In this document: positions 5,549 through 63,158 of the stretch, piece by piece | How the letters are laid out: every line of letters begins with the position of its first letter | How positions within the stretch are numbered: position 1 is the stretch's first letter | Assembly: GCA_030650395.1 (NCBI GenBank) | Contig: JAUSDY010000004.1 | Location: 1 to 64,000, forward strand | DNA length: 64,000 nt | Direction of reading: 5' to 3' | DNA from: Acidobacteriota bacterium | GTDB taxonomy: Bacteria > Acidobacteriota > Vicinamibacteria > Vicinamibacterales > UBA2999 | Made by a program: the position numbers and the translations under genes | The notes under the pieces: generated by a model | What the model saw: only the letters and a program-made list of their open reading frames with translations | Told to the model about the DNA's origin: nothing | Databases searched by the model: none

Positions 5549-5646
5549 ACGATCAGACTCGGGGGGTTAGACGGGGCAGCGCGTGCAGGGTTCGTCTCTT
5601 CGACTCGATTGCTGACGTGAACGGAGGGATGGATAGAATGACAGTG

Positions 5647-5700
5647 GTTCTTCACGGAGGTTCCGCACGACGGTTCCTCACGAGGGTTCCTCACGGAGGT
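5647..5700. repeat. GGTTCCTCACGAA-type tandem repeat running into a ribosome binding site
   Basis: About four units of the form GGTTCyTCACGGA / GGTTCCGCACGAC sit head to tail. The last unit supplies the ACGGAGG that serves as Shine-Dalgarno sequence for the ATG at 5705. The same family occurs at 17453, 49158 and 52931. Confidence 0.85.
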
Positions 5701-5704
5701 TCGA

Positions 5705-11604: not shown

Positions 11605-12656
11605 TGCGCTGGCTGTGCGCCCTCGGGCTCGTGGTCTTTCTCGGTGGGGATAAATCTTCTGGTGGCGACAAACCTTTCTTGTCCGCCGAAGCGCCGGGCG
11701 CGAAGGCGGAAGGTTTGTCCGTCACCCAGGCCACGTTGCCCACTCCCGGCTTTCACCATCTGCACCTGAACTCGATCAATCCCGACGCGGCGATCGAGTT
11801 CTACACAAAGCAATTCCCGACGACCTCAAAGGGAACCTTCGCCGGTCAGCCGGCGTTTCGATCCCCGAACAATGTGTGGGTGTTATTCAACAAGGTCGCT
11901 GCACCACCAGCGACGCAGCCTCAAACCGCGTTCTGGCACTTCGGTTGGCACGTCACCGACGTGCACAAGAGCAGGCAGGCGTTCACGGAGCGCGGTGTGA
12001 CGCTGCTGCCGCTCTACGTAGAAGAAGCCGGCGGCACAGTGTTCACCAGCGCCGACACGTGGCCCGGCTCGGGCGGCGCGCTTGGCCTGACCAAAGCCGG
12101 CATTGCCGACGCCAAAGCCAAGGGCGTCAAGCCGACCTTCGGCGCGGGCTTCGCCTACATGCGCGGCCCGGACGATGCGCTGATCGAGTACCAGGGGAAT
12201 CAGCCGGCCGAGCGCTTCAATCACATCCACATGTTCCAGGACCAGCCGTTCTGCGCGCAGATCTGGTACCAGACGCATCTAAATATCGCGGTCCGTCAGG
12301 CTGCGAATCAACCGGTGCGGACCGCCGCCAACTGCCGGGTGGAGCGCGGCCCCGACAAGACCTGGCCGGCCCTCGATCACACCGGCATGTATCGCACGCC
12401 CGGAGTCACGAGCACGGTGTTCGGCGATGTCTCGATCTTCTGGTACATGAATCAGGGCGCCACCCCGGCCGGCCCGACGCGCGGCCACCTCATGGATCAC
12501 ATCGCGCTCAGCGTGCAGGACCTCGACGCCTGGATCGCCAAGCTGCGGGCCGAAGGCGTGAGGTTCCTCGAGCAGCCCTACCAAGTTGGCGACTATCGCG
12601 CCGTGATGATCGAAGGCCCGAGCCGCGAAGCCATCGAGGTGATCGAAATCAGGTGA
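11601..12656 (+). CDS. Exported double VOC (glyoxalase/bleomycin-resistance fold) protein
   Basis: A 351-aa protein with two vicinal-oxygen-chelate domains. The first is at about 50-195 (FHHLHLNS..., ending ALIEYQGN) and the second at about 200-350 (FNHIHMF..., GHLMDHIALSVQDLDAW, ending AIEVIEIR). Candidate metal ligands are the histidines opening each domain and the glutamates near their ends. The N-terminus is hydrophobic (MMRWLCALGLVVFLG), but residues about 22-40 are encoded by an inserted repeat, so the signal peptide and mature start are unclear. It overlaps the M16 gene by 4 bp. Substrate unknown: VOC folds serve lyases, dioxygenases and resistance proteins. Confidence 0.85.
   Translation: MMRWLCALGLVVFLGGDKSSGGDKPFLSAEAPGAKAEGLSVTQATLPTPGFHHLHLNSINPDAAIEFYTKQFPTTSKGTFAGQPAFRSPNNVWVLFNKVAAPPATQPQTAFWHFGWHVTDVHKSRQAFTERGVTLLPLYVEEAGGTVFTSADTWPGSGGALGLTKAGIADAKAKGVKPTFGAGFAYMRGPDDALIEYQGNQPAERFNHIHMFQDQPFCAQIWYQTHLNIAVRQAANQPVRTAANCRVERGPDKTWPALDHTGMYRTPGVTSTVFGDVSIFWYMNQGATPAGPTRGHLMDHIALSVQDLDAWIAKLRAEGVRFLEQPYQVGDYRAVMIEGPSREAIEVIEIR
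11667..11720 (+). repeat. In-frame palindromic repeat inside the VOC gene (CCGCC..GGCGG family)
   Basis: The outer arms GACAAACCTT and AAGGTTTGTC flank an inner CCGCCGAAGC...GCGAAGGCGG palindrome. It encodes the linker between the hydrophobic N-terminus and the first VOC domain. Related cores occur at 55795 and 62932. Confidence 0.7.
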
Positions 12657-16016: not shown

Positions 16017-17446
16017 TCTTTCACAGTCTCGAGTTCCTCGCCTTTGTCATCATCACTCTCGCTGCGTACTGGGTGCTGCCGATGCGCGCCCAAAACGTGC
16101 TGCTGCTGGTAGCGAGCTACCTGTTCTATGGCTGGATCCACCCATGGTTCGTTGCACTGATCTTCGCGACCAGCGTGATCGATTACTGGTCGGCGCGCGG
16201 CATGACGATGTTCCCGGAGCGCAAGAAGGCCTTTCTCTGGCTCAGCATCGTCACCAACTTCGGGCTGCTCGGCTTCTACAAGTACTTCGGGTTCTTCGTC
16301 GACAACGTCGCTGCGGCCGGTGACAGCCTGGGGTGGAACATCCCACACATCGCCCTTCGCGTGGCGCTGCCGGTCGGGATCTCGTTCTACACGTTCCAGT
16401 CGATGAGCTACACCATCGACGTGTATCGCGGGCATGCGCCGGCCCGCAGGCGATTTGTCGACGTCGCGGCGTTCATCGCCTTCTTCCCGCACCTGGTCGC
16501 CGGTCCGATCATGCGCGCCACCAACCTGCTGCCGCAGTTCGAGCGCGAGCGCCGGTTTTCGGCGGCGGCGGCGCGCGATGCGACGGTGCTGATGGTGTGG
16601 GGCTTCTTCAAGAAGCTGGTGATCGCCGACAACGTCGGCGTGATCGCGAACAAGGTGTTCGCGCTCGCGGACCCCGAGTTCTTCGTGTTGTGGGCAGGGG
16701 TGTTCGCCTTTGCGATCCAGATCTATGCGGACTTCTCGGCTTACACCGATATCGCGCGCGGGGTGGCCAAGTGGTTTGGCTTCGAACTGATCAAGAACTT
16801 CGAGCGCCCGTACCTCGCGACCGGGCCTGGCGACTTCTGGCGGCGGTGGAACATCTCGCTGTCGACCTGGTTCCGCGACTACGTTTACATTCCGCTCGGC
16901 GGCTCCCGGCGCGGGCCGTGGCGCCAGGCGGCCAATATCCTGATCACGTTCCTGGCGTCGGGCCTGTGGCACGGCGCGAGCTGGAATTACGTGTTGTGGG
17001 GCGCGTACCACGGCATGCTGCTGGTCGTCGCGCGCGCCCGCGGCCCGGCATCGCCGCAGCGGCACGCGACGCGAGGGTGGCTGTGGCCGCTGCAGGCCGC
17101 CGGCATGTTCGTGCTGACGTGCATCGGCTGGCTGATCTTCCGCGAAACGGAATTCGCGCAGCTCGCGCGCGATCTACGGCTGGTGCCGTGGCAGTCGAGC
17201 GCGATCGGCACATCCGCCGGTCTCTATTTGTTTCTGCTCGCTGCTCTCTACTCGGTTCCGCTCTGGATTCACGATCTGTGGGCGGAGTTGAAGGGTGCCG
17301 ACCTGGTTGCGGCGATCGAGACGCCAGAGGTCGACGTCAACTGGCGTCGTACCGCCGCTCAGGCGCTGCTTAGCGGGGTGCTCGTGACCGCGATCGTCAC
17401 GCTCCGCAGCCGCACAGCGCTGGACTTCATCTACTTCGCGTTTTAA
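16013..17446 (+). CDS. MBOAT family O-acyltransferase (AlgI-like)
   Basis: A 477-aa polytopic membrane protein starting at GTG 16013, overlapping the SGNH gene by 4 bp. It shows the AlgI-type signatures: FHSLEFL.F start, LLLVASYLFYGW, PVGISFYTFQSMSYTIDVYRG, the SLSTWFRDYVYIPLGGSR cytoplasmic loop, and the catalytic-histidine helix SGLWHGASWNYVLWG. It would transfer an acetyl or other acyl group across the membrane to the SGNH partner. No alginate, cellulose or teichoic acid genes are adjacent, so the acceptor may be a different glycan. Terminates before a large inverted repeat array. Confidence 0.93.
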   Translation: MIFHSLEFLAFVIITLAAYWVLPMRAQNVLLLVASYLFYGWIHPWFVALIFATSVIDYWSARGMTMFPERKKAFLWLSIVTNFGLLGFYKYFGFFVDNVAAAGDSLGWNIPHIALRVALPVGISFYTFQSMSYTIDVYRGHAPARRRFVDVAAFIAFFPHLVAGPIMRATNLLPQFERERRFSAAAARDATVLMVWGFFKKLVIADNVGVIANKVFALADPEFFVLWAGVFAFAIQIYADFSAYTDIARGVAKWFGFELIKNFERPYLATGPGDFWRRWNISLSTWFRDYVYIPLGGSRRGPWRQAANILITFLASGLWHGASWNYVLWGAYHGMLLVVARARGPASPQRHATRGWLWPLQAAGMFVLTCIGWLIFRETEFAQLARDLRLVPWQSSAIGTSAGLYLFLLAALYSVPLWIHDLWAELKGADLVAAIETPEVDVNWRRTAAQALLSGVLVTAIVTLRSRTALDFIYFAF

Positions 17447-17452
17447 TCCGTC

Positions 17453-17569
17453 GGTTCTTCACGAGGGTTCCGCACGAGGGTTCCGCACGATCGTTCTCGA
17501 CGAGGGTTCGTTGAGAACCTCCGTAAGGAACCTTCGTGAGGAACCTTCGTGAGGAACCTTTGTGAGGAA
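17453..17569. repeat. Large inverted array of GGTTC(C)TCACGA units between convergent genes
   Basis: Four to five GGTTCyKCACGAG units run forward (17453-17512), then GAACCTTCGTGAG units run as their reverse complement up to the stop codon of the convergent gene (17570). The symmetry predicts one long hairpin on either transcript. Confidence 0.9.
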
Positions 17570-19765
17570 CTATTGTGGAATCCGCGCAAGTCGAATCGCA
17601 CCCACGCGCGCGCCCAGCAGCCGCGTATCGTTGCCGCCGACGAGCGCTGCCGGCGACACCAGCGGCGACGATTGCAGCCACAACTGATTGACGCCCGCGC
17701 GCCAACAGCGCTGCTCGACATCCCAGTCGTAATCGGCCTGTCCCGGCGGCATCGGCCGAATGGGTAGCTGGCAGTCGTTGATCGCCAAACCGAGCGTCGG
17801 ATGTTGCGTCGCGCGCGCTGCCGGCGTGGCGGTGACGGTGATGCGCACCGGCCCGGGCGGCGCCATGCTGATGCGCAGCGAAGCGTTTGGGGCGGCCGTC
17901 CAGCGAAACGGATCCGGATCGGCTTCGGGTGAATGCCAACCCGTTCCAAACGGCGGTGAGAGGTTCATTCGAAGGGCGGCGCTTGCGGTGGGCAGGCGGC
18001 CGAGGGTGAGATCGGCGCGCGCAACTCCCGGGCATAGCGTCACGGTCGAGGGTCCGTCGGCCGTGGCGACCACGGTCTGCGGGGACGCGGCGAACGTGAA
18101 GGTGATCGGGTCGCGCCGGCCGGTCTCGCGAATGCGAAGCGTCACGACTTGCGGCACGCCCGCTCTCGCCGCGGCCCGCTCCAGGTCACCGATTCCCGCC
18201 GCTGCGTCGTGAACGACGGGGCCCATCTCGAATGGGATGCTGCGCGGTTCGATGCTCGCGAAGCGCACCGGCTGCGGATCGGTCAGCCGCAGCATCACAC
18301 CGCCGGGCGCCGAGGCGGGCGTGGCGCCGTGCAGGATGAAGGATCCATTGGCGACGAGCAGCGAAACGTCGGGCCATTTGCCGGGCTCGAGCGCCACGCA
18401 CGGGATCTGTCCCGTCAACACCGCGATCGCCGTCGGGCCCAGCCATCCGCGCTCGAACAGGAAGCCCATGCGCTCGAGGTGCGAGCGCCCATTGGCGAAG
18501 GCGACGATCTGGCGGCCGCGACTGACCAGCGACTGCACCTGTTCGAGGCCCTGCGGAATGATCAGCGCCAATGACCCGGCGTGTTGCGAAGACAGCAGGA
18601 GGGTGGCATCGACCCGGCGGCTCTCGGCGATGATCGCCGTGCCGGACGGCAGATCCGTCACCTTGAAGTCGTACGCCATGCGGGCTGCTGCCTCCGAGCT
18701 GCGATCTCTTCCTAAGGCAGAGAGACGCACGCGTGTCAGGCCGGGATCTGCGATCAGCAGCACGCCGACTACCGCCACGAGCGCCCGGCCAGCGCCGGGC
18801 CGCACCGCTTGCGCCAGCCATGCCAGCGCGACCGCCACGGCTGCCCAGCCGCAGATCGACAACGGCACGCTCACGATCTCGAGGCCTGAGCGAGGCACCA
18901 GCCAGAACCACGCGATCAACCCAGCGACGAGCGCGGCGAGCGCGCGGCGATTACGAGGAACGCTCCACAGCACCACCAGCCCGATCAGGATCAGCAGCGC
19001 ACCCATCGGCGTGAATTCGCGCGACACCGACGTCACCGCCGCTCCCAGCGACGAGCCGTGAATGGGAAGAATGCGTTGGGACCCTCTGGCCAGCAATGGC
19101 AGCGTCGCAGACGCGGCCGCAACCGCAATGGCCGCGAGGGTACGCACTCGATTCGTGCGATCGGGCACGCGGCTCCAAAACAGCAGGGCCACTCCCGGCA
19201 GGCATGCCAGCCACGATGCGTCCTCCGCGAGCGCAAGGACGGCCGCACTCACGGCGACGATCGCGAAAATCGCGCGTGGCGACTGCAACCATCGCCCCCC
19301 CGCCCAGGCCGCCAGCAGCGCCAGCGCCGGCGATAACGCGTCGGCCGACCAGTAGATCCCGCGCCACCAGAACGTCGCGCTCGCGCCCATCGCGAGCATC
19401 GCGAAGAGAACCGAGTACAGCGGAACACCGGCCGCACTCAACCAGGCGCCGAAGGCCACGATGGCGAACCCGGCGGCGATGGCGGCGAAATCGCGTAGCG
19501 CCGTGCGGCGGCCCTTGGCGATGGCGATCGATCCGCGGCCCGCCACCGACGACGGCGACCACGGCACCGCGAATGGCGTCTCGAGCGCGGGCAACAGCGA
19601 CTGCGCCCACGGTGCGTCCGCCGGAGAAAATATGTGATCGCGATCGGCGGTGCCGATGCCGAGCGCGGCGCCGGACAAGTACGTCAAACCGGCAGCGAGG
19701 CCGACGGCCGCGATGACCGCGCGCGAGGCCCAGCGTGGTGCGCGGGCCGCTAGGTGAAGAGGCAT
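17570..19765 (-). CDS. Multi-TM membrane protein with large extracytoplasmic C-terminal domain
   Basis: I choose ATG 19765 (MPLHLAARAP, 731 aa), 20 nt after a perfect TATAAT; an upstream ATG at 19801 would overlap that promoter. About 9-10 hydrophobic helices fill residues 15-350. A soluble C-terminal half of beta-rich character follows. The segment around the third helix (ASATFWWRGIYWSADAL) resembles the DUF2723/GT-C style of membrane glycosyltransferase, but I cannot identify a catalytic aspartate pair. It is divergent from a GT-C-like gene, which suggests a shared role in cell-surface glycan assembly. Function not assigned. Confidence 0.75.
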   Translation of the reverse strand: MPLHLAARAPRWASRAVIAAVGLAAGLTYLSGAALGIGTADRDHIFSPADAPWAQSLLPALETPFAVPWSPSSVAGRGSIAIAKGRRTALRDFAAIAAGFAIVAFGAWLSAAGVPLYSVLFAMLAMGASATFWWRGIYWSADALSPALALLAAWAGGRWLQSPRAIFAIVAVSAAVLALAEDASWLACLPGVALLFWSRVPDRTNRVRTLAAIAVAAASATLPLLARGSQRILPIHGSSLGAAVTSVSREFTPMGALLILIGLVVLWSVPRNRRALAALVAGLIAWFWLVPRSGLEIVSVPLSICGWAAVAVALAWLAQAVRPGAGRALVAVVGVLLIADPGLTRVRLSALGRDRSSEAAARMAYDFKVTDLPSGTAIIAESRRVDATLLLSSQHAGSLALIIPQGLEQVQSLVSRGRQIVAFANGRSHLERMGFLFERGWLGPTAIAVLTGQIPCVALEPGKWPDVSLLVANGSFILHGATPASAPGGVMLRLTDPQPVRFASIEPRSIPFEMGPVVHDAAAGIGDLERAAARAGVPQVVTLRIRETGRRDPITFTFAASPQTVVATADGPSTVTLCPGVARADLTLGRLPTASAALRMNLSPPFGTGWHSPEADPDPFRWTAAPNASLRISMAPPGPVRITVTATPAARATQHPTLGLAINDCQLPIRPMPPGQADYDWDVEQRCWRAGVNQLWLQSSPLVSPAALVGGNDTRLLGARVGAIRLARIPQ

Positions 19766-28797: not shown

Positions 28798-29844
28798 ATG
28801 GACGGCTCGAATCAGTGGTACATGGCCATCGGCGGCCATCAGGTCGGACCGGTGGGGCAGAGCGAGATCATCTCGAACCTCCAGAACGGCAGCATCGACG
28901 CCGAGACGCTGGTGTTCACCGCCGGCATGACGTCGTGGCAGAAGGTCAAGGACGTTCCCGCCTTCGCGGCCTTTGTCAGGAACCCTGCGGCCGCTTCGGC
29001 GGGGCAGGCGCCTGGTTTTGGACCGCCGCCCGCGCCAGGCCGCCGGGCGCACGACATCGATTTCGAGATCCACGGCAACGAGATGCAGTTCGTCGAGGTG
29101 GCGCTCGATCCGGGTGAAGGCGCGGTCGCCGAAGCCGGCTCGATGATGTACATGACGCAAGGCATCAACCTCGAAACCATCTTCGGCGACGGCAGCCAGC
29201 AGCAATCGAAGGGCGTGCTCGACGCGCTGCTCGGCGCCGGCAAGCGCATCCTGACCGGTGAGAGCCTGTTCATGACGGTGTTCACCAACCAGGGCCAGGG
29301 CAAGCAGAAGGTCGCCTTTGGCGCGCCGTATCCCGGCAAGATCATCCCGATGGATCTGCGCGCGCTGGGCGGGCACCTCGTGTGTCAGAAGGACTCATTC
29401 CTCTGCGCCGCCCGCGGCGTCTCGGTCGGCATCGCCTTCCAGAAGAAGCTCGGCGTCGGCATCTTCGGCGGCGAAGGCTTCATCATGCAGAAGCTCGAAG
29501 GCGACGGCCTCTGTTTCGTGCACGCCGGCGGCACCATTCATCACTTCGAGCTCGCCCCCGGCGAGACGATGCGCGTGGATACCGGGTGCCTGGTGGCGCT
29601 GCAGCCGAGCGTGAACTACGACATCCAGTTCGTCGGCAAGGTGAAGACGGCGCTGTTTGGCGGCGAAGGATTGTTCTTCGCCACGCTCACCGGCCCCGGA
29701 CGCGTATGGCTGCAGTCGTTGCCGCTCAGTAGGATGGCGGATCGCATCTACGCCGCGGCACCGCAGAGCAAGGGATGGCGCAAAGAAGAGGGGTCGATCC
29801 TCGATCGGGTTGGGGGCCTGGGCGATCTGATCGATGGACGGTAG
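28798..29844 (+). CDS. GYF_2 plus AIM24 (TIGR00266-like) protein
   Basis: A 348-aa cytoplasmic protein. The N-terminal GYF_2 domain (about 6-55: WYMAIGGHQVGPVG, then GMTSWQKVKDVPAF) is a small peptide-binding module found beside membrane or adaptor proteins. The rest is an AIM24 domain (about 78-310), rich in glycine-turned beta strands (EAGSMMYMTQGI, GEGFIMQKLEGDG, PGETMRVDTGCLVAL). AIM24-family proteins are conserved but of unknown biochemical function in bacteria. It stands between TerB-like and MBL genes, all on the + strand. Confidence 0.9.
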   Translation: MDGSNQWYMAIGGHQVGPVGQSEIISNLQNGSIDAETLVFTAGMTSWQKVKDVPAFAAFVRNPAAASAGQAPGFGPPPAPGRRAHDIDFEIHGNEMQFVEVALDPGEGAVAEAGSMMYMTQGINLETIFGDGSQQQSKGVLDALLGAGKRILTGESLFMTVFTNQGQGKQKVAFGAPYPGKIIPMDLRALGGHLVCQKDSFLCAARGVSVGIAFQKKLGVGIFGGEGFIMQKLEGDGLCFVHAGGTIHHFELAPGETMRVDTGCLVALQPSVNYDIQFVGKVKTALFGGEGLFFATLTGPGRVWLQSLPLSRMADRIYAAAPQSKGWRKEEGSILDRVGGLGDLIDGR

Positions 29845-29846
29845 TG

Positions 29847-29903
29847 CCGCAGATAACGCAGAACAATCAACGGGGCCGCAGATGACGCAGATTACGCAGA
29901 TCT
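29847..29903. repeat. CGCAGATNA repeat (outer arm of a promoter-spanning inverted repeat)
   Basis: CCGCAGATAACGCAG..., GGGGCCGCAGATGACGCAG and ATTACGCAGAT units precede the MBL gene. Their reverse complements (TCTGCGTCA...) occur at 29957-30058 inside that gene, so the promoter and start codon lie in the loop of a large inverted repeat. Confidence 0.85.
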
Positions 29904-29925
29904 AAAGACTCGACAAGCGGCGTGG

Positions 29926-29931
29926 TACCAT
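29926..29931 (+). promoter_or_regulatory. -10-like TACCAT before a leaderless MBL start
   Basis: TACCAT is followed after 8 nt by ATG 29940, with no Shine-Dalgarno sequence. Confidence 0.35.
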
Positions 29932-29939
29932 AGCGCGCC

Positions 29940-30932
29940 ATGGCGTTAACACGTTTCGTGAAGTCTGCGTCATCTGCGTCATCTGCGGCCCGCCTTTTGA
30001 GATCTGCGTTATCTGTGTCATCTGTGGCCCTGTTGTTCTTATCTGCGTCATCGGCGGCGCAGGTCAGGACGGCTGATCCCGCCAAGCGCGGCTTGAGCCG
30101 CTCGGAGTTCCCGCGCACCATCAAGCTGGCCGATAACGTCTACGGCTACGAAGACATTCGCAATCCCGGCTTCACCACCGTCAGCCTGTTCGTCGTCGGC
30201 AACGACGGCGTGCTGATCGCCGACGGGCAGGGCAGTCCCGACGCCACGCGCAACCTGCTTGAGGCGATCGTGAAGGTCACGCCCAAACCGGTCAAGTGGT
30301 ACATCGTCGGATCCGATCACGGCGATCACACCGCCGGTAATGCCATCCTCCCCAGAGATATCACCTACATCGTGTCGAAAGCGTCGAAGATGCAGATGGA
30401 GCGCGACGCGGCCAATCCGAATCGGCCGCTGACCGCGCTACCGGTGATCGTGCCGCCTGTGGCGATGACCAGCGATAAGCAGGTGGTGAATGTGGGAGGC
30501 ATCGAGGTCCAGGCGCTCTATCTGGGTCGCGCGCACACGGGCGGCGACCTGTTGGTCTACCTGCCCAGGCAGAAGATCCTCTTCATGAGCGAGGTCTACC
30601 TCAATCGCGTGTTCCCGGCCATGCGCTCCGCCTATCCCACGGAGTGGGTGTCGGTGATCGACAAGGCGCTGAAGCTGGACGTCGATCGCTTCGTGCCCGG
30701 CCACGGCTTTATCGAAGGGCCGAACGCATCGCGTGAAGAGCTCGTTGAATATCAGAAAGCGCTTCGCGCCGTGATCGCCGAGGTCAACCGCCTCCACAAG
30801 CTTGGGCTGTCCGCGGATGATGCGGCGAAGCAGGCGAACTGGGGGCCGTACAAAGAGTGGTTTCTCGTGGAGCAGCAAGGGCCGATTGCGGTCCGCAAAA
30901 TCTACGAAGAGATCGAGGGCAAGCTCAAGTAA
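29940..30932 (+). CDS. Exported metallo-beta-lactamase-fold hydrolase with variant metal site
   Basis: A 330-aa protein. Residues about 9-41 form a Ser/Ala-rich hydrophobic signal sequence encoded by a DNA repeat. The MBL fold follows (VSLFVVGNDGVLIADGQGS). Where class members have HxHxDH, this protein has S125-D-H127-G-D129-H130. A further ligand, H199 (GRAHTGGDLLVYLP), and the late H255 (VPGHGF) are kept. The usual bridging aspartate position reads MSEV (E218) instead of GD. So one zinc ligand appears to be lost and another conservatively changed. It could be a mono-metal or non-zinc MBL enzyme; beta-lactamase activity should not be assumed. Confidence 0.85.
   Translation: MALTRFVKSASSASSAARLLRSALSVSSVALLFLSASSAAQVRTADPAKRGLSRSEFPRTIKLADNVYGYEDIRNPGFTTVSLFVVGNDGVLIADGQGSPDATRNLLEAIVKVTPKPVKWYIVGSDHGDHTAGNAILPRDITYIVSKASKMQMERDAANPNRPLTALPVIVPPVAMTSDKQVVNVGGIEVQALYLGRAHTGGDLLVYLPRQKILFMSEVYLNRVFPAMRSAYPTEWVSVIDKALKLDVDRFVPGHGFIEGPNASREELVEYQKALRAVIAEVNRLHKLGLSADDAAKQANWGPYKEWFLVEQQGPIAVRKIYEEIEGKLK
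29957..30058 (+). repeat. TCTGCGTCA repeat encoding a signal peptide
   Basis: Units TCTGCGTCATCTGCG, TCTGCGTTATCTGTG and similar are nine bases long, so every unit encodes the same SAS/SVS-like triplet. The repeat yields a Ser/Ala-rich signal peptide ending about residue 41. Confidence 0.8.
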
Positions 30933-49138: not shown

Positions 49139-49157
49139 CTTTGGCGAACGACCGACC

Positions 49158-49224
49158 GTCGTGAGGAACCTTCGTTGGGAACCTCCGTGGGGAACCTCCG
49201 TAAGGAACCCTTGTGAGGAACCCT
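49158..49224. repeat. GTGAGGAACCTTC-type tandem repeat in a divergent promoter region
   Basis: Units GTGAGGAACCTTC, GTTGGGAACCTCC, GTGGGGAACCTCC, GTAAGGAACCCTT and GTGAGGAACCC run between the divergent arsR-methyltransferase and DsbA-like genes. Reverse orientation of the 5647 and 52931 arrays. Confidence 0.9.
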
Positions 49225-49251
49225 GCCGGATCCCGTGCGATAATGCCCCTC

Positions 49252-50001
49252 TTGTCCTTCATCACGATCCGGCCATTCGTCATGGCGATTGCGGGTGCGC
49301 TGGCGCTCGCCGGCACCGCTTCGGCTCAAACGACCATCACCTCTCAACAGGCTGACGAGATCCTCAAGGAACTGCGAGCGATCCGCCAGGCGGTCGAGAA
49401 GCTGCAAGTCGCCGCGCCCCCGGCCCTGCCGCAGGCGCCGCCGGCTCCGCCCGCGAAGGTGCACATCGCCAACGTCAGCGGCTACATGCTGGGCCGCCCG
49501 GACGCCCCGATCACCATCGTCGAGTTCACCGATCTGCAGTGCCCGTTCTGCAACCGCTTCGCGACCCAGACCTTCGATCGGCTGAAGAAGGACTACATCG
49601 ACACCGGCAAGGCGCGTTTCATCTCGCGCGACTATCCGCTGGACTTCCACCCGCAGGCCAAACCCGCGGCCATTGCGTCGCGATGCGCGGGCGAGCAGGG
49701 CAAGTTCTGGGACATGCGAATGGCGCTCGTCAAGAACGCCGGCCGGTTGTCGCCGGCCTTGATCGCGGAAACCGCAGCGTCGCTCAAGCTGGACCTACCG
49801 GCGTTCAACGCGTGCGCGGCCGGCCCGCAGCATGCGGCCGCGATCCAGAAAGACATTGCCGAAGCGTCGAGCATCGACGTCTCAGGCACCCCCACGTTCT
49901 TCGTCGGCCAAACCACCGCTCAGGGGTTTGACGGGTTTCGCATCGTTGGCGCACAGGATTACTCTGTGTTCCAGGCGCGGCTCGACTCGCTCCTGAAGTA
50001 A
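49252..50001 (+). CDS. Exported DsbA-like thioredoxin-fold oxidoreductase
   Basis: A signal peptide (ending ALAGTASAQ) and a short coiled stretch (QADEILKELRAIRQAVEKLQ) are followed by a thioredoxin-fold domain. It has active-site CPFC in FTDLQCPFCNRF and the cis-proline loop GTPTFFVG. It should form or shuffle disulfides in exported proteins; the family includes DsbA-like and ScsC/BdbD-like members. The start is uncertain. TTG 49252 follows a GATAAT hexamer by 7 nt and gives a signal peptide with a basic residue. ATG 49243 and ATG 49282 are the alternatives. Confidence 0.87.
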   Translation: MSFITIRPFVMAIAGALALAGTASAQTTITSQQADEILKELRAIRQAVEKLQVAAPPALPQAPPAPPAKVHIANVSGYMLGRPDAPITIVEFTDLQCPFCNRFATQTFDRLKKDYIDTGKARFISRDYPLDFHPQAKPAAIASRCAGEQGKFWDMRMALVKNAGRLSPALIAETAASLKLDLPAFNACAAGPQHAAAIQKDIAEASSIDVSGTPTFFVGQTTAQGFDGFRIVGAQDYSVFQARLDSLLK

Positions 50002-50057: not shown

Positions 50058-52931
50058 ATGGGAATTCTCGATAAGCTCCGTCCGCAGACCAAGTCCACGC
50101 ATCCCGACCCCAACATCCGAATCGAAGCGGTGCACGAGATCGACGCCGATGACGTCGCGTCGCTCGGCGCGTTTGCCAAGGACGATGCCGACGCGCGAGT
50201 GCGCCGTGCCGCGGTGTCGCGCATTTCCGATCCCGCAGTGCTGGCCGACATTGCCCGCAACGAATCCGAAGGGATGGTGCGCGACCACGCGGTCGGGCAG
50301 CTGGTCGAGCAGGCCTCGAAGCACGACCCGGCCGTCGCATCAGCGGCAGTGTCGGCGCTCGCGTCGCTCGGCAGAGAGCGTGAGCTGGCCACCGTCGCGA
50401 AGGGCGCCGGTCCCGAGGCCGTTCGCCGCGCGGCCATTGCCGCGGTGCGTGATGAAAAGGCGCTCGGCAGCATCGCCCGCCACGCCGCGGAATCGAGCGC
50501 GCGCTTGCTGGCCGTTGAACGGCTGACGAGTGCCGCCGAGATCGAGGACGTCGCCATGCGCGGCGAGCACGCCGATGCGGCGGTTGCAGCGGTCGATCGT
50601 TTATCAAATCCATCGCCGGAAACGCTTGCGGCGCTGAGCCAGAAGGCTCGCGCCAAGGCCGCGCAGAAAAAAGCACGCACCTTGATTAAGGCCGCCGAAC
50701 AACCCGTGGCCCCGACCGAGTCCGGAGCCGCTTACAAGGAAGCCGATCAGCAGCGCGCCAAGGATCTCGTCGCGCAGATGACGAAGCTGTCCGACGTAAG
50801 CGACTTCACTCAACTGCGCGAAGCCTACGCGGCCGCGCGCGTTGCGTGGGTCGAGCTGCTCGCCGATGCCGGTGTCGAGCCGGCGATCGAAACCGAGTTC
50901 GAAAAAGCATCTGAGATCGTGCGGGCGCGGCTGGCGGCCGACGAAGCCGCCCGTGCCGATGCGCAACGCCAGCGCCGCGCGCTCGAACAGGAACAAACCG
51001 ACCGCGCCGCCGCGTGCGCGTGCGTCGAAGGCTTGAGCGGCGACGATGTGCTCGATCGCCTCGCCGAGTCCCGCGCGACGTGGGAAGGCATGCCGCCGAT
51101 GCCCGGGGAATGGGCCGCCGCGCTCGAGCACCGTTTCCAGGAAGCATGCCGCGCCGCGGAGAAACGATTCGAGCGGCGCGTGCAGGCGCAGCAATCCGCC
51201 GAGCGCTTGCCGTCGATCGTCAGCGAGATCGAAGAGCTGGCCGCCAACCCGTCGTACGCCGACGTCCGGAGCCAGTGGTACGCGTTGCGCAAGCAGTGGC
51301 TGGCCATCGCCCGCGACGTCGAGATCGATTCCGAATTGAAGACCCGCTACGACGCCGCGGCGACGACGCTCGAGGCGCAGGAGCAGACCTATCGGGACGG
51401 CAAGGGCCAGCAGCAGACCGAGAATCTCCATCGCCTCCAGGCCGTCGTGCAGAAGTTCGAGACGCGCGCGACGGCCGAGCAGCTCACTCTCAAGCAGACC
51501 GATCAGCTGCTGAAGGACGTGAAGCTGGCGGTTGGCACGATGGGCCCGCTGCCCACCAAACAGGATCGCGAAGACCTGATGGTGCGCCTGCAGGCGGTGC
51601 GGACGTCGCTGACCCCGCGCATCCAGGAACTGCGCGAGGCCGAGGAATGGAAACGCTGGGCCAACGTCCAGGTGCAGGAAGAGCTCTGCGCCAAGATGGA
51701 GGCGCTTGTGCCGCAGGCCGAGACCGATCCTGAAAAAGCCTCGAACGAGATGCGGACGCTGCAAGAGCGGTGGAAGTCGGTGGCCGCCGCGCCACGCTCG
51801 CAGGCCGAGACGCTGTGGACGCGCTTCAAGACCGCGCAGGAGCAGGTCTACGACAAGTGCAAGGACTTCTTCGCGCAGCAGGCGGTCGAACGCGTCGAGA
51901 ACCTGAAGAAGAAGGAAGAGCTGTGCGCGCGCGCCGAAGCGATGGCCGAGTCCACCGACTGGGTGAGGACAGCCGACGCGATGAAGGCGCTGCAGGCCGA
52001 GTGGAAGGCCGTGGGCGCGGTGACCCGCGGCAACGAGAAGGCGGTGTGGGAGCGGTTCCGCGCGTCGTGCGACAAGTTCTTCACGCGCCGCCAGGACGAC
52101 CTCAAGCAGCGCAAGCAGGATTGGACCGAGAACCTCAAGCGCAAGGAAGCGCTCGTCGCCGAGGCGGAGAAGCTGTCGCAGTCGACCGAGTGGGAGCAGG
52201 CCGCGTCGCGCATCAAGCGGCTGCAGGTCGAGTGGAAGACGATCGGCCCGGTCAAGAAGAGCAAGTCCGATGCGATCTGGAACCAGTTCCGCGCCGCGTG
52301 CGATCTGTTCTTCGACCGCTTCAAGAATCGCGACCAGGTCGCGCTGACGGGCAAGATGGCCGATCGCGAGACGACGGTCGCCGAGCTCGAGGCGCTGGTG
52401 CCGCCGCCCGACGCGGCGGACGCGACCGCGCCTGAAGATCTCTACGCGAAGGTCCAGGCGGCGCGCGCCCGGTGGGTGCAGGGACCCGAGCTGCCGCGGC
52501 ACACGCTGGCGCCGCTGGCCGAGCGGGTCAACACGGCGCTCTTCACGCTCGTGACGCGGTGGCCCGACGGCTTCAAGGGCACGGACCTCGATCCCGAGCT
52601 CACGCGCGGCAAGATGGAAAAGCTCGTCGCCAAGGTGGAGAAGCTGCTGCCGACCGAAAGTGCGGAGCCGGCGAAGAACCTGTCGCCGGCGGAACTGCTG
52701 GCGCGGCAGTGGCGCGAAGCGCTTGCCGCCAACACCATGGGCGCCGGATCTGCGCGGCAGGCGGAAGACGCGCGCCAGCGCGCCGCCGAGCAGGAAGTGC
52801 GCAGCGCGCAAGCGGCGTGGGCGCGCCTCGGGCCGTTATCGCCCGATCAACGCAAGCCGTTGCAGGAGCGCTTCGATCGCGCCGTTCGGAAATTCTCTGA
52901 GATGAGGCGCCGCAGCACCGCACGAGCATAG
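50058..52931 (+). CDS. Large DUF349-repeat protein with HEAT-like N-terminus
   Basis: A 957-aa, almost wholly helical cytoplasmic protein. Residues about 15-190 look like HEAT-type repeats (PNIRIEAVHEI, ARVRRAAVSRI, EGMVRDHAVGQL). Then follow at least five DUF349 units marked by a tryptophan in LQERWKSVA, LQAEWKAVGAV and LQVEWKTIGPV, each followed by KAVWERFRASCDKFF-type helices. DUF349 is a repeat found in bacterial proteins of poorly known role. The repeats and heavy charge suggest a long rod or scaffold. Stands alone between a DsbA-like gene and a repeat array. Confidence 0.85.
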   Translation: MGILDKLRPQTKSTHPDPNIRIEAVHEIDADDVASLGAFAKDDADARVRRAAVSRISDPAVLADIARNESEGMVRDHAVGQLVEQASKHDPAVASAAVSALASLGRERELATVAKGAGPEAVRRAAIAAVRDEKALGSIARHAAESSARLLAVERLTSAAEIEDVAMRGEHADAAVAAVDRLSNPSPETLAALSQKARAKAAQKKARTLIKAAEQPVAPTESGAAYKEADQQRAKDLVAQMTKLSDVSDFTQLREAYAAARVAWVELLADAGVEPAIETEFEKASEIVRARLAADEAARADAQRQRRALEQEQTDRAAACACVEGLSGDDVLDRLAESRATWEGMPPMPGEWAAALEHRFQEACRAAEKRFERRVQAQQSAERLPSIVSEIEELAANPSYADVRSQWYALRKQWLAIARDVEIDSELKTRYDAAATTLEAQEQTYRDGKGQQQTENLHRLQAVVQKFETRATAEQLTLKQTDQLLKDVKLAVGTMGPLPTKQDREDLMVRLQAVRTSLTPRIQELREAEEWKRWANVQVQEELCAKMEALVPQAETDPEKASNEMRTLQERWKSVAAAPRSQAETLWTRFKTAQEQVYDKCKDFFAQQAVERVENLKKKEELCARAEAMAESTDWVRTADAMKALQAEWKAVGAVTRGNEKAVWERFRASCDKFFTRRQDDLKQRKQDWTENLKRKEALVAEAEKLSQSTEWEQAASRIKRLQVEWKTIGPVKKSKSDAIWNQFRAACDLFFDRFKNRDQVALTGKMADRETTVAELEALVPPPDAADATAPEDLYAKVQAARARWVQGPELPRHTLAPLAERVNTALFTLVTRWPDGFKGTDLDPELTRGKMEKLVAKVEKLLPTESAEPAKNLSPAELLARQWREALAANTMGAGSARQAEDARQRAAEQEVRSAQAAWARLGPLSPDQRKPLQERFDRAVRKFSEMRRRSTARA

Positions 52932-52996
52932 GGTTCCCCACGAAGGTTCCTCACTGAGGTTCCTCACGAAGGTTCCTGACGAAGGTTCGAGGAACC
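52931..52996. repeat. GGTTCCTCACGAA tandem repeat after the DUF349 gene
   Basis: Five units (GGTTCCCCACGAA, GGTTCCTCACTGA, GGTTCCTCACGAA, GGTTCCTGACGAA, GGTTCGA) end with a short GGTTCGAGGAACC palindrome. Confidence 0.9.
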
Positions 52997-53191
52997 GTGT
53001 TTGCGGTGCACGTTCACGCATTCGCCTTTGCCGGTCTCACGCTTTCGGAAGCGGTTAAGTTCAGCCGCATCGACGCCGTGCAAGCGGTGGTGGGCTACGG
53101 CTTGAGGGCGGCCGCCATCGGCTTCATCTACCTCGTGGCATCGATCCCCGCGTCTGTCATCATCCTGGCGTGGGCCGCCATTGCGTCGTGA
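52997..53191 (+). pseudogene. C-terminal remnant of a DUF3667-like membrane protein
   Basis: A 64-codon frame opens directly after the repeat (GTG 52997) with FAVHVHAFAF, a phrase typical of the C-terminal membrane region of DUF3667-type proteins. It continues with [27 protein letters not shown], a TM helix. The N-terminal half is missing because the DUF349 gene and the repeat array lie upstream. I read it as a truncated gene; it could still be expressed as a two-TM peptide. Confidence 0.45.
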
Positions 53192-54728: not shown

Positions 54729-55018
54729 CCAGATTGATCGTGGTGGCTCTTGCCGTGACGGCGTGGCTGACCGGTCGCGCGTCCGCGCAGAGCTCAGCGG
54801 ATTCATTCCAGGTGGGCGCACAGCTCACCGTGGCCCGGTCCGGACAATTCGACTCGACCGAGCTCGGCATCGGTGGGCGAGTGTCATGGCATCCGATCGC
54901 GCTCGTCGGGATCGAATCGGAGATCGGTCCTTCGTTCGCCGACGGCTTTACCTTGCGCGACACGGCTTTCTTCAGTCACGACTTCCGGGTGAGCTTCGGC
55001 GGTGGTCTACGTTTCTGA
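54725..55018 (+). CDS. Short exported beta-rich protein (truncated outer-membrane barrel?)
   Basis: A 97-aa protein from ATG 54725, overlapping the hydrolase by 4 bp. A signal peptide (LIVVALAVTAWLTGRASA) precedes four amphipathic beta strands (FQVGAQLTVARS, STELGIGGRVSWHPI, VGIESEIGPSF) and the terminal DFRVSFGGGLRF, ending in phenylalanine as outer-membrane barrels do. Complete barrels of this style are about twice as long, so an internal deletion is likely. Function unknown. Confidence 0.65.
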   Translation: MTRLIVVALAVTAWLTGRASAQSSADSFQVGAQLTVARSGQFDSTELGIGGRVSWHPIALVGIESEIGPSFADGFTLRDTAFFSHDFRVSFGGGLRF

Positions 55019-55195
55019 TGCGCCGCAGATGAGTCCAACGGGGCCATAGATGACACAGATGACGCAGATCAAATTCTTTTCTTAACGCGGCCGCAGATGA
55101 CGCGGATTACACAGATCGGGTGTATGCGGAAGCTAGATCTGCGTCATCTGTGTCATCTGTGGCCCCGTTGTATTGAATCTGTGTTATCCGCGGCC
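55019..55195. repeat. Inverted array of CGCAGATNA units before the penicillin-acylase homologue
   Basis: GCCGCAGATGA, ACACAGATGACGCAGAT and GGCCGCAGATGACGCGG units (left) face TCTGCGTCATCTGTG, TCATCTGTGGCCCCGTTG and TCCGCGGCCCCGTG units (right). Same family and same style as 29847-30058. No gene in this stretch. Confidence 0.88.
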
Positions 55196-55220
55196 CCGTG
55201 TGTGGCACAATCCCGGGGCT

Positions 55221-57434
55221 ATGAAACGACTAGTCATCCTCCTCGCGTTGGCCGCCGCATCGTGCTCGTCGCAGCCCCAGGCGGCACCAGTCAGTCCCGA
55301 GGTTGCCGCCTGGCAGAAGCGCGCCGAGGGCGTGACGGTCATTCGCGACGACTGGGGCGTGCCGCACATTTACGGCAAGACCGACGCCGACGTGGTGTTT
55401 GGCCTGATGTATGCGCAGGCCGAAGACGACTTCAACCGCGTCGAGACCAACTTCATCAACTCCCAGGGCCGTCTCGCCGAGGCAGAGGGCGAAAAAGAGA
55501 TCTACCGCGATCTCCGCATGAAGCTCTTCATCGACCCGGCCGACATGAAGGCGCAATACGGCAAGAGCCCGCAGTGGCTCAAGGCGCTGATGGACTCGTG
55601 GGCCGACGGCCTCAACTTCTACCTGGCGACGCATCCCAACGTACAGCCGCGGGTCATCAAGACATTCGAGCCGTGGATGGCGCTGAGTTTCAGTGAAGGC
55701 AGCATCGGCGGCGACATCGAGCAGGTCAACCTCACGCAGCTCGAAGCCTTTTACGGGACTAGCCGAGCGCCACAAGTATCGAGAGGCGCGAGTCCCGCCG
55801 AAGCCGACGTAGTCGGCGAAGGCGGACCACCCGAAGAGCCTCGCGGCTCGAACGGCATTGCGGTCGCGGGCATGAACACCGCATCAGGCAAGGCGCAGCT
55901 GCTGATCAACCCGCACACCTCCTTCTTCTTCCGCGAAGAAGCGCAGATGGTGAGCGAGGAGGGCCTGAACGCCTACGGCGCGTTGACGTGGGGACAGTTC
56001 TTCATCTACCAGGGTTTCAACGACAAGGCCGGCTGGATGCACACCTCCAGCAGCGTCGACAACATTGACCAATACCTGGAGACCGTCACGAAGAAGGCCG
56101 ACGGCACTTACGCCTACCGGATCGGGACCGAGGAGCGGCCGTTGACCGTGTCGAAGATCACCGTGCCCTACAAGAGCGGCAGCGGCCTGGCGACCAGGGA
56201 GTTCACGGTGTACAAGACACATCGCGGGCCGGTCGTCCGCGACGCCGACGGCAAATGGGTCAGCATCCGGCTGATGCAGGAGCCGATGACCGCGCTGACG
56301 CAGTCGTACTCGAGGACCAAGGCCAGGAATATCGCCGAGTACAAGAAGGTGATGGACCTGCACACCAACTCGTCCAACAACACGCTGTATGCGGACGCCG
56401 ACGGCAACATCGCGTACTTCCATTCGAACTTCATTCCCAAGCGCGATCCGAAGTTCGACTGGACCAAACCGGTCGACGGCACCAACCCCGCCACCGAATG
56501 GAACGGCGTGCTGTCGTTCGACGAGACGCCGAACGTCGTGAACCCGCCGAACGGCTGGGTCTACAACACCAACAACTATCCGTTTTCCGCGGCGGGGAAG
56601 AACAGCCCCAAGCAGAGCGCCTTTCCGGCCTACGTCGATTCGGGCAGCGAGAACCCGCGCGGCGTCCACGCCATCAAGGTGCTCGACGGCAAGAAGGGCT
56701 TCACGCTCGACAGCCTGATCGCCGCTGCGTACGACAGCTACCTGCCTGAATTCGAGCTCCTGATTCCGAGGCTGCTGAAGGCGTACGACCAGACACCCGC
56801 GAGCAACCCGTTGAAGGCCAAGCTCGCCGATCAGATCAAGGCGCTGCGCGATTGGGACTATCGCTGGTCGGCGACCTCGGTGCCGACGGCGCTCGCGGTG
56901 TTCTGGGGTGAAGACCTCTGGCAGCGCGTCACCCCGGACGCGCGCAAGGCCGGCATGTCGACCTACGCCTTCATGGAGACAAAGGCCACGACAGCGCAGC
57001 TGCTCGAGTCCCTGTCGGCCGCGTCCGACAAGCTCGCCGCCGATGTCGGCAAGTGGAACACGCCGTGGGGCGACATCAACCGCTTCCAGCGCAACAACGG
57101 CGACATCGTGCAGAAGTTCGACGATGCGAAGCCGAGTACGCCAGTCTCGTTCACGTCGGCACGATGGGGTTCGCTGGCGTCGTTCGGCGCGCGCGCTTAT
57201 CCCGGCACCAAAAAATGGTACGGCACCAGCGGCAACAGTTTTGTCGCGGTCGTGGAATTCGGCGACCAGGTCAAGGCGAAGGCGGTCACGGCCGGCGGCC
57301 TGAACAGCGATCCCGCGTCGCCGCACTTCAACGACCAGGCCGTGCGTTATGGCACCGGTGACCTCCGAGACGTCTATTTCTATCGTCCCGAGGTCGAGGC
57401 CCACGCCAAGCGCACCTATCGCCCGGGTTCATGA
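55221..57434 (+). CDS. Penicillin-acylase-type Ntn hydrolase, lipoprotein
   Basis: A 737-aa precursor from ATG 55221 with a lipobox-like LAAASC. The alpha part (about 35-175) has GVTVIRDDWGVPHIYG and FGLMYAQAEDDFNRVE. The spacer peptide follows, then the self-cleaving beta-chain serine S210 in RGSNGIAVAG. The beta part has NPHTSFFF and THRGPVV. Family members cleave amide-linked acyl groups (penicillins, acyl-homoserine lactones, other N-acyl amino acids). A repeat lies in frame at residues 179-205, exactly in the spacer that should be cut out during maturation. The next gene overlaps by 4 bp. Confidence 0.92.
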   Translation: MKRLVILLALAAASCSSQPQAAPVSPEVAAWQKRAEGVTVIRDDWGVPHIYGKTDADVVFGLMYAQAEDDFNRVETNFINSQGRLAEAEGEKEIYRDLRMKLFIDPADMKAQYGKSPQWLKALMDSWADGLNFYLATHPNVQPRVIKTFEPWMALSFSEGSIGGDIEQVNLTQLEAFYGTSRAPQVSRGASPAEADVVGEGGPPEEPRGSNGIAVAGMNTASGKAQLLINPHTSFFFREEAQMVSEEGLNAYGALTWGQFFIYQGFNDKAGWMHTSSSVDNIDQYLETVTKKADGTYAYRIGTEERPLTVSKITVPYKSGSGLATREFTVYKTHRGPVVRDADGKWVSIRLMQEPMTALTQSYSRTKARNIAEYKKVMDLHTNSSNNTLYADADGNIAYFHSNFIPKRDPKFDWTKPVDGTNPATEWNGVLSFDETPNVVNPPNGWVYNTNNYPFSAAGKNSPKQSAFPAYVDSGSENPRGVHAIKVLDGKKGFTLDSLIAAAYDSYLPEFELLIPRLLKAYDQTPASNPLKAKLADQIKALRDWDYRWSATSVPTALAVFWGEDLWQRVTPDARKAGMSTYAFMETKATTAQLLESLSAASDKLAADVGKWNTPWGDINRFQRNNGDIVQKFDDAKPSTPVSFTSARWGSLASFGARAYPGTKKWYGTSGNSFVAVVEFGDQVKAKAVTAGGLNSDPASPHFNDQAVRYGTGDLRDVYFYRPEVEAHAKRTYRPGS
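55755..55830 (+). repeat. In-frame double palindrome in the acylase spacer
   Basis: A first palindrome (GGGACTAGCC...GCGAGTCCC) is followed by CCGCCGAAGCC-GACGTAG-TCGGCGAAGGCGG (55795-55825). The latter belongs to the same family as 11667-11720 and 62932-62957. Confidence 0.75.
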
Positions 57435-58255
57435 GCGAACAGAATCCGCAGGATCGGTTCACCAAGACGCCGGTCGCGTATCAGATGCCGGGCACCGATC
57501 GCGTCGCGGTGCAGGCCGACATCCAGTTTCGCGGCGCCGACGGCGGCCCGCTGCCGATGGATGTTTACCTGCCGCCCGACCTGAAGAACGGCGACCAGAG
57601 ACCGGCTGTCGTGATCGTGAACGGGTATCCCGATCCCGGGTTCGAGAAGATGTTCGGGCTGAAGTTCACGCAGCTTGCCGCGATTTCGTCGTGGGGCCGC
57701 CTGATTGCCGCGTCCGGGTTGATTGCGGTGGCGTACTCGAACCGCGATCCGGTCGCCGACCTCGACGCGGCGCTCGATCATGTCGAGAAGAACCTCACCT
57801 CGCTCGGCATCGACGGCGCCCGCACCGGCATCTGGGCCTCGTCTGGCCACGCTCCGCTGGCCTTGTCGGCGCTGATGAAGAGGCGCGAGCTGAAGTGCGT
57901 GGCCTTACTGTATCCATACACACTCGATCTCGATGGCGCCACGGGCGTCGCCGCTGCGGCGAAGATGTTCCGGTTCGCCTACGCCGGCGAGGGCAAGACC
58001 GTCGACGACCTGCCGGTGGCCACTCCGCTGTTCGTGGCGCGGGCCGGCAAGGACGAAATGCCGGGCCTGAACGACGCCCTCGATCGAGTCCTGGCGAAGG
58101 CGATCGCACGGAACCTGCCGCTCACGTTCGTGAACCAGCCCGAAGGGCTGCATGCATTCGACATCTATCAGGACAGCGCGATGTCGCGCGCGGTCGTGCG
58201 CAGCGTGCTCACCTTCCTGCGGTCTCACCTGTCTTTGGATAGAATCAGCGGGTGA
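57431..58255 (+). CDS. Alpha/beta hydrolase (dienelactone-hydrolase-like)
   Basis: A 274-aa protein overlapping the acylase gene (ATGA). Fold landmarks: PAVVIVNGYPDPGF (oxyanion side), nucleophile elbow GIWASSGHAPL (candidate serine in SSGH, an atypical GxSxG), acid in ARAGKDEMPG and histidine in EGLHAFDI. There is no signal peptide. It may act on a product of the exported acylase, but nothing in the sequence shows this. Next gene overlaps by GTGA. Confidence 0.85.
   Translation: MSEQNPQDRFTKTPVAYQMPGTDRVAVQADIQFRGADGGPLPMDVYLPPDLKNGDQRPAVVIVNGYPDPGFEKMFGLKFTQLAAISSWGRLIAASGLIAVAYSNRDPVADLDAALDHVEKNLTSLGIDGARTGIWASSGHAPLALSALMKRRELKCVALLYPYTLDLDGATGVAAAAKMFRFAYAGEGKTVDDLPVATPLFVARAGKDEMPGLNDALDRVLAKAIARNLPLTFVNQPEGLHAFDIYQDSAMSRAVVRSVLTFLRSHLSLDRISG
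58240..58245 (+). promoter_or_regulatory. -10-like TAGAAT before the GNAT start
   Basis: TAGAAT inside the end of the hydrolase gene is followed after 6 nt by GTG 58252. It would give a second, leaderless promoter for the acetyltransferase. Confidence 0.35.
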
Positions 58256-61833: not shown

Positions 61834-63158
61834 TCTGCGTCAGCACGCGCGGGAAGTCGCCCGCCGTTCCTTTCAGGGACGCCGTTCTTGCGGGGCTGGC
61901 TCCGGATGGCGGTCTCTATGTTTCTGCGACGCTGGAACGCCGTTCCGAGGAGTGGTGGAACGCGCTGCGAGGTCGTTCGTTTCAGGACGTCGCCGTTGCG
62001 ATGGCGCAAGCGCTCATCGGCGATGAGTTCGCGCCGGGCGAACTGACCGCGCTCGTCACCAGCGCCCTCGACTTTCCGATCCCGATCATCCACCTCGAGG
62101 ATCGGCTGCAGGTCGTTGAGCTGTTTCACGGTCCGACGTTTGCCTTCAAAGACTTCGGCGCGCGCATGCTGGCGCGGTTCATGTCGCACGTTCACGCCGG
62201 CGCCGAGCCCCTCACGGTGCTGGTCGCGACGTCCGGTGACACCGGCAGCGCCGTGGCGCACGCGTTCTTCGGCGTGCCCGGGACCCGGGTGGTCGTGCTC
62301 TATCCCGAAGGACAGGTGAGCGCGGTGCAAGAGGCGCAGTTCACGACCCTTGGCGGAAATGTCAGCGCGGTGGCGGTCGCCGGCACGTTCGACGACTGCC
62401 AGCGCCTGGCGAAAGAGGCGTTCGCGAACGAGACGCTGAAGGCGCGCGTCACACTGACCTCCGCCAACTCGATCAGTCTTGGGCGTCTTGTCCCGCAGAT
62501 GTTTTATTACGCCTATGCCGCGCTGCAGGCCGACCGACGGCAGCCCATCACCGTCTCGGTGCCGAGCGGCAACTTTGGGAATCTCGTCGCGGGCGTGATG
62601 GCGTGGAAGATGGGCGCGCCGCTCGCGTCGTTTGTGGCGGCGACGACGGTGAATGATACGGTGCCGAGGTATCTCGACAGCGGCCGCTTCGAGCCGCGGC
62701 CGTCGGTGGCGACGCTGGCCAACGCGATGGACGTCGGCAATCCCAGTAACTTCGAGCGGCTGCAGTGGTTATTCGACGGCGACCGTGCCGCGATGCGCGG
62801 AGCGATCTCGTCCAGCGTTCACACTGATGACGACGTCAGGCGCGCGATTGGCGAACTGCATCGCCGATACGGCTATGTTGCGGACCCGCACACCGCGATT
62901 GCGTATCTCGGGACTCAAGCCCCCAAGCCCTCCCGCCTTCGCCAAGGCTACGGCGGGCAAGCAAGCCCACCAGCCCCCAAGCCCTCAAGTCCTCTCGTAT
63001 TCCTATCGACCGCGCACCCTGCGAAATTTCGCGAAGTTGTCGAGCCGGCGATCGGCAAGACTGTGCAACTACCAGACGCGCTCGCGGCGGCGCTGGAGCG
63101 GCCGCGCTTCGTGGAGCGCATCGGCGCCACGCTCGGCGAGTTGTCGAAGTTGCTATGA
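61830..63158 (+). CDS. thrC: Threonine synthase with repeat-derived insertion
   Basis: A 442-aa PLP enzyme turning O-phosphohomoserine into threonine. The PLP lysine is K107 in FAFKDFGARM. SGDTGSAVAHAFFG and the phosphate-binding SGNFGNLVAG are present, and the substrate loop has NSISLGRLVPQ. Near the C-terminus a stretch of about 26 residues (363-389, rich in Pro, Lys, Gly: QAPKPSRLRQGYGGQASP) is coded by two kinds of repeat DNA. After it the normal fold resumes (VFLSTAHPAKFREVVEPAIG). It lies where the family has a surface connection, so the enzyme may stay active. Pairs with thrB. Confidence 0.94.
   Translation: MICVSTRGKSPAVPFRDAVLAGLAPDGGLYVSATLERRSEEWWNALRGRSFQDVAVAMAQALIGDEFAPGELTALVTSALDFPIPIIHLEDRLQVVELFHGPTFAFKDFGARMLARFMSHVHAGAEPLTVLVATSGDTGSAVAHAFFGVPGTRVVVLYPEGQVSAVQEAQFTTLGGNVSAVAVAGTFDDCQRLAKEAFANETLKARVTLTSANSISLGRLVPQMFYYAYAALQADRRQPITVSVPSGNFGNLVAGVMAWKMGAPLASFVAATTVNDTVPRYLDSGRFEPRPSVATLANAMDVGNPSNFERLQWLFDGDRAAMRGAISSSVHTDDDVRRAIGELHRRYGYVADPHTAIAYLGTQAPKPSRLRQGYGGQASPPAPKPSSPLVFLSTAHPAKFREVVEPAIGKTVQLPDALAAALERPRFVERIGATLGELSKLL
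62916..62995 (+). repeat. Composite repeat inside thrC
   Basis: A palindrome CCGCCTTCGCC-AAGGCTACGGCGG (62932-62957) sits between AAGCCCCCAAGCCCT-type heptamer arrays. The heptamers match the intergenic array at 24734-24805, and the palindrome matches the family at 11667 and 55795. Confidence 0.85.

Follow-up and report, generated by a model that had tools for sequence, protein, structure and literature searches.

Rickettsia palindromic elements (RPEs) are palindromic repeats that lie in frame in many protein genes of one bacterial lineage. The GTAG and CGTC super-families of REP sequences are described, in the available text of PMC3733652, as palindromes of 20-40 nt that reach high copy number and often form head-to-head dimers. 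According to the same text, some REPs sit entirely inside open reading frames, where dimers or groups encode 20-30 residues, and its authors suggest that flexible linkers and loops may be places where an insertion is neutral; RPE-1 is given there as longer than such repeats, and Koribacter is mentioned for other repeats (PMC3733652). Among self-processing enzymes, glutaryl-7-ACA acylase (PDB 1keh, 3s8r and others) releases its spacer autocatalytically, with a second cleavage that needs E159, as stated in the accessible portion of PMC2739207.

Here we analyse a 64,000-nt stretch of Acidobacteriota DNA (the window), in which a relative of glutaryl-7-ACA acylase carries a palindromic repeat in frame between its predicted alpha and beta chains; the solved relative has a shorter spacer and no repeat. 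We consider it very probable that this repeat is a copy of a REP-like family persisting in a dispensable linker. Intragenic REP- or RPE-like palindromes are in our judgement already known as a kind, to which the window family belongs. It resembles the GTAG/CGTC REPs, as portrayed in the available text, in palindromic form, copy number, head-to-head pairs and copies within open reading frames, and differs from them in carrying the tags only sporadically and in its Acidobacteriota hosts. With RPEs it shares, at the level of description, in-frame palindromes in many genes. Within the open-access literature searched (listed titles and abstract openings, with subscription papers outside the scope), we found no description of the family and no report of a palindromic in-frame insertion in an acylase; by title, nothing relevant appeared on repeat insertion in an acylase linker, and a search for REP elements in frame in bacterial proteins had no match. 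In a bacterial order with few cultured members, the family adds short peptides to many proteins. Its copies amount to natural, repeated insertion experiments at one loop of one enzyme, and the linker of the acylase offers a direct way to ask whether self-excision can hide mobile DNA from a mature protein.

An in-frame palindrome upstream of the acylase serine

Four features of the window define the locus.

55221 to 57434, plus strand: acylase gene, encoding a 737-aa penicillin-amidase-family precursor with a lipoprotein-like N terminus (lipobox by eye)
55758 to 55847, plus strand: codons 180-209, a hypervariable linker that joins the alpha region (ending ..LEAFYG) to the serine of the beta chain
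55792 to 55827, plus strand: palindromic unit GTCC-CGCCGAAGC-CGACGTAGTCG-GCGAAGGCGG-AC, 36 nt, in frame, encoding S-P-A-E-A-D-V-V-G-E-G-G-P
55848 to 55850, plus strand: S210 codon, the predicted beta-chain N-terminal nucleophile, from alignment to solved beta chains

The gene product matches the PF01804 profile over residues 38-727 at 413.7 bits, against a curated cut-off of 21.3 (E 2.9e-123). This places it in the penicillin amidase / S45 Ntn-hydrolase family and bears out the original prediction of a penicillin-acylase-type enzyme. Its best solved matches are cephalosporin (glutaryl-7-ACA) acylase precursors (profile match 616 bits). In alignment, S210 falls on the first residue of many solved beta chains, and G209-S210 is invariant in 25 of 25 rows of alignment A1, in agreement with the earlier choice of S210 as the predicted beta-chain nucleophile. 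By alignment, therefore, the protein has a Gly-Ser junction with Ser as the beta-chain N terminus; it is probably self-cutting.

The palindromic unit starts within codon 191 and takes in only the first base of codon 203. Between its end and the S210 codon lie 20 nt, about 7 residues, so that it occupies positions of about -19 to -7 relative to the serine. The repeat had been predicted to fill 55755-55850, to encode residues 179-205 and to stop five residues before S210; a copy does lie inside the gene, but its extent, its residues and its distance from the serine are corrected here to those just given. The full 96-nt span was rejected as the repeat, since it folds unremarkably (z -1.44, with 24 of 200 shuffles folding equally well); the 36-nt unit, folded as single-stranded DNA, has a z score of -3.55. 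The segment 55755-55791 is common to the sister genome G001, lacks repeat arms and is read as native linker. With up to three mismatches allowed, the unit's 30-mer is matched once in the window and never in 100 shuffles. A covariance model of the family matches the unit at 41.3 bits (E 8.8e-07), the unit being itself one of the 32 from which the model was built. No Rfam family matched 55000-57600 at E 1 or better.

A REP-like family in one order of Acidobacteriota

The family was defined by the pattern CGCCGWAGC-N(0-30)-GCGRAGGCGG, with the reversed pattern as control. The window's own genome (G000) holds 176 matches, a few of them nested, against none for the reversed control, which upholds the claim that repeat DNA lies in frame inside the acylase upstream of S210. 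Of the 162 genomes that represent the order, most of them drafts, 127 hold at least one match; the reversed control gives 1-5 matches in some, so low counts there mean little. The family is spread through one order of Acidobacteriota. There are four copies within the window, three of them outside the acylase gene.

11684 to 11709, plus strand: exact family copy, pattern match
28958 to 29001, minus strand: exact family copy, in frame inside a plus-strand open reading frame (residues 62-77 of the printed frame)
62933 to 62955, minus strand: exact family copy, pattern match

The family is absent among the best 20 of 54 direct-repeat families and the best 25 of 73 inverted pairs of the window.

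Each unit forms a hairpin with conserved arms (CGCCGWAGC and GCGRAGGCGG), an internal mismatch loop and an inner stem that is variable but self-complementary. Across 32 units, 88.7% of the hairpin cells are paired, compared with 36.7-52.0% when the pairing is slid, and the covariation score is attained by none of 500 shuffles; these units were picked by hand out of 48 and their arms are set by the search pattern, so only the inner stem and foot are informative. Copies occur in both orientations. We collected 99 own-genome units. They come from the surroundings of the pattern matches listed, from the window and from one further stretch (L253), which was added because in-gene copies were already apparent there. 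A complete head-to-head partner lies 5′ of 28 of the 99. The family thus combines a short palindrome, high copy number, paired arms and head-to-head pairs, as expected of REP-like repeats. The unpaired GTAG or CGTC tag at the stem end that marks the two super-families is no regular feature of the 99 units: GTAG and CGTC occur in 0 and 3 of them, respectively, in the 7 nt that adjoin the left arm, in 2 and 5 in the left 14 nt, and in 1 and 6 in the right 14 nt.

The window's own genome encodes one REP-transposase-like Y1 transposase (L091, 1462-2352, 296 aa), which scores 61.4 bits against NF047646, below the cut-off of 80. No Y1 hit was obtained in G061 or G052, despite 87 and 57 pattern matches, respectively, and a link between the family and a Y1 transposase was sought and not found.

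In-frame copies in other proteins

Stop codons are distributed very unevenly over the six frames of the 99 units: 49 units carry a stop in one frame and 14 in another, and the other four frames are each interrupted in 1-3. In 27 of the 99 units, falling in 23 open reading frames, the unit is in frame with coding-like flanks as judged from codon usage, a heuristic, as are the gene calls. L253 contributes two of the 27, and one of the 23 frames (L064, 2700) scores poorly overall. Six proteins were compared with NCBIfam models. PurH, PheS, PcnB and AtpG (ATP synthase gamma) score above curated cut-offs, a threonine/serine dehydratase match falls below its cut-off, and the sixth protein is the Y1 transposase described above. 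We know of no excised spacer in PurH, PheS, PcnB, AtpG or the threonine-dehydratase-like enzyme.

Three of these sites bear units in other genomes as well. Units lie within about 15 residues of the same site in 3 of 50 PurH loci, 3 of 30 PheS loci and 3 of 30 PcnB loci, each count including G000 and one hit at one mismatch. For each gene 30 loci were taken, from 144 (PurH), 139 (PheS) and 142 (PcnB) matching genomes, and the 20 extra PurH loci were chosen for an alignment break near the site. Among the aligned relatives, the loops of PurH and PcnB are shorter where the repeat is absent, and that of PheS varies in every row. Tallied by eye at 0-1 mismatch per 30 loci, units number 5 in the acylase, 3 in PheS, 3 in PcnB and 2 in PurH, a comparison for which we claim no significance and in which the reversed control covers the acylase only. 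The acylase linker is therefore not alone as a permissive landing site; it may be the best of those seen, without clear superiority.

In the stretch L253 (G000:C121:1-6000), two units lie close together at 2604-2717, in frame in a protein that by eye is TPR-like.

The proposed mechanism builds on these features. A short REP-like palindrome would spread genome-wide in both orientations, with four of its six frames almost free of stops, and in-gene copies would persist, by tolerance, where the encoded residues (12-13 in the acylase and roughly 10-30 in other genes) fall in a loop or linker that the protein can spare. One such place would be the alpha/beta linker of the acylase, probably entered at least three times.

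Recurrent insertion in the acylase linker

We measured the linker from the residue after FY through the Gly preceding the Ser. It spans 31 residues in the window acylase, 15-52 across 54 orthologues of the order and 17-59 in 70 of 80 relatives in which it could be located, these relatives coming from named records that overlap with the order genome set. Linkers of repeat-free relatives are likewise hypervariable. Among the 80 relatives, repeat arms were flagged only in L092 and L096, which correspond to G001 (C14) and G007 (C12) and so add no new insertions. Because the linker is unalignable, neither a target duplication nor a clean empty site could be read there.

At a threshold of E 1e-150 or better, 56 of the 162 order genomes have an orthologue. 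The linker is readable in 55, initially in 54 and in G088 once more sequence was included; the match in G036 starts past it. Units occupy the linker in 8 of the 55, exactly in seven (G000, G001, G007, G060, G061, G091 and G088) and with one mismatch in G077. Across about 112 kb of orthologue genes, no exact unit lies outside the linker. At the genome-wide density of exact units, the linkers would be expected to hold 0.036 and the remainder of the genes 0.91; with G088 excluded, units were seen in the linkers of six genomes and nowhere in the remainder. The single one-mismatch match outside the linker, in L201, encodes a conserved Y-x-Y-R stretch and is for that reason read as chance.

The covariance model, which derives from units of the own genome, recovers all eight linker units with E values between 8.8e-07 and 2.9e-04. 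A further 15 hits of the model up to E 1 include a unit in L044 that lies outside the gene (E 6e-06) and the L201 match (0.016); the remaining, weaker hits start at E 0.047. These values bear on whether high-GC Ala, Glu and Gly codons in a disordered linker could have produced the palindrome by chance, with no mobile repeat involved. The linkers are indeed Ala-, Pro- and Glu-rich, and at up to three mismatches the detector returns many hits on the real orthologue genes and 54 on the reversed ones, a count that led us to leave matches weaker than one mismatch uncounted. At 0-1 mismatch, however, the reversed control is empty, and the eight linker units reach E 3e-4 or better under the model (32 own-genome units, the window's included). 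Together with the 176-to-0 contrast in the genome, this already contradicts a chance origin, to which we give almost no credence.

The strands, frames and tree positions of the units suggest at least three insertions into the linker. G000 and G001 have one unit in common, the G007 unit lies on the opposite strand, and those of G060, G061, G077 and G091 lie on the strand of G007 in a different frame; these three strand/frame types hold separate positions in the tree. On a tree built without the linker, the state 'unit present' requires at least five changes (G077 counted as present, G088 absent from the tree), the tree coming from a quick method that leaves 13 of 51 inner branches open. The minus-strand copies of G060, G061, G077, G088 and G091 share their orientation and, where checked, their frame; a single old insertion may be the source of them all.

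Other linkers show, by eye, decayed remnants, which were not counted. Read by eye, the 52-residue linker of G091 (L180) contains three repeat-like blocks in succession (..SALRRDEP, ..TAFRRDAP and ..TLRKDEAVEP), as if units had entered sequentially. In G088 (L257, G088:C278:1200-4800), the reading frame changes within the linker, at about 1990-2150, beside an exact unit, and the GSNG nucleophile region was not found in this orthologue. Either the gene is broken, in which case not every landing is harmless, or the assembly is faulty.

Possible self-excision and the persistence of the copy

The original prediction explained the survival of the copy by self-excision: the repeat-encoded peptide would lie wholly within the segment that the enzyme cuts out of itself, leaving the mature protein unchanged. 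The unit adjoins the beta-chain serine, and within these genes exact units are confined to the linker between the chains, which they appear to have entered separately more than once; to this extent the predicted location stands. Placing the spacer by alignment to characterised acylases succeeds at its downstream end, where S210 corresponds to beta-chain residue 1, and gives a less favourable answer upstream. The beta chain of glutaryl-7-ACA acylase begins at residue 170 in the deposited structures, and of its nine deposited alpha chains three end at 158-160, two at 166 and four at 169, the deposits ending at 166 or 169 including the spacer or part of it. The spacer reportedly comprises about 9-10 residues. 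On the three shorter chains, excision in this closest solved relative is apparently confined to the 9-10 residues that precede the serine, and by analogy the window unit, at -19 to -7, would straddle the excision boundary. The GEGDPP of this relative lines up with a partly repeat-encoded GEGGPP in the window acylase; the GEG motif common with the E159 site was set aside as coincidence, because repeat-free orthologues were seen without it.

A longer spacer is known from penicillin acylase of E. coli, where it is said to total 54 residues. In the available text of PMC2845550, the alpha chain of this enzyme ends at A209 and K227 still belongs to the excised spacer. Alpha chains extended by 1 or 18 residues into the spacer accompanied a drop of activity to 49% (PMC2845550, same text), so partial retention of linker residues might be bearable. 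For the window acylase, we put removal of most repeat-encoded residues during maturation at somewhat below an even chance; complete excision is possible.

Self-excision is also not needed to account for survival. The same repeats lie in frame in PurH, PheS, PcnB and AtpG, enzymes not known to have excised spacers, the loops of the first three bear units in other genomes too, and the acylase linker is hypervariable even where it contains no repeat. Tolerance of dispensable loops is sufficient, which makes self-excision unnecessary as an explanation, and we regard the view that the copy survives because its peptide is wholly cut away as plausible but rather unlikely.

Possible selection on the repeat and possible renewal of the linker

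The repeats could instead be functional, the hairpin acting in DNA or mRNA or the peptide tuning self-cleavage. The pair G000 and G001 (84.6% DNA identity over the gene) lends this some support, as codons 191-203 show no synonymous change and the sole difference inside the 36-nt unit falls in the hairpin loop. Windows of that size without synonymous change number 27 of 724 in this comparison, but as few differences (two or fewer) are found in 82 of 724; recent arrival or conversion between copies fits equally, and the place and strand of the unit vary between lineages. We therefore hold a function to be improbable, and persistence in a dispensable linker remains the preferred reading. The linker might also, as the three blocks of G091 could suggest, be a standing landing pad, which mobile palindromes re-enter as selfish DNA, supplying spacer sequence, rebuilding the propeptide and perhaps providing the place of the second self-cleavage; we think this, too, quite unlikely.

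Other repeats in the window

Directly upstream of the acylase gene lies an inverted pair of a 'GATGACGCAGATC'-type repeat (55036-55070 and 55136-55170, 97% complementary), with related copies at 29869-30047. Arrays with a 13-nt period (GGTTCCTCACGAA type) occur at 5633-5717, 17427-17590, 49142-49254 and 52906-53003, in both orientations, and form long inverted pairs with one another.
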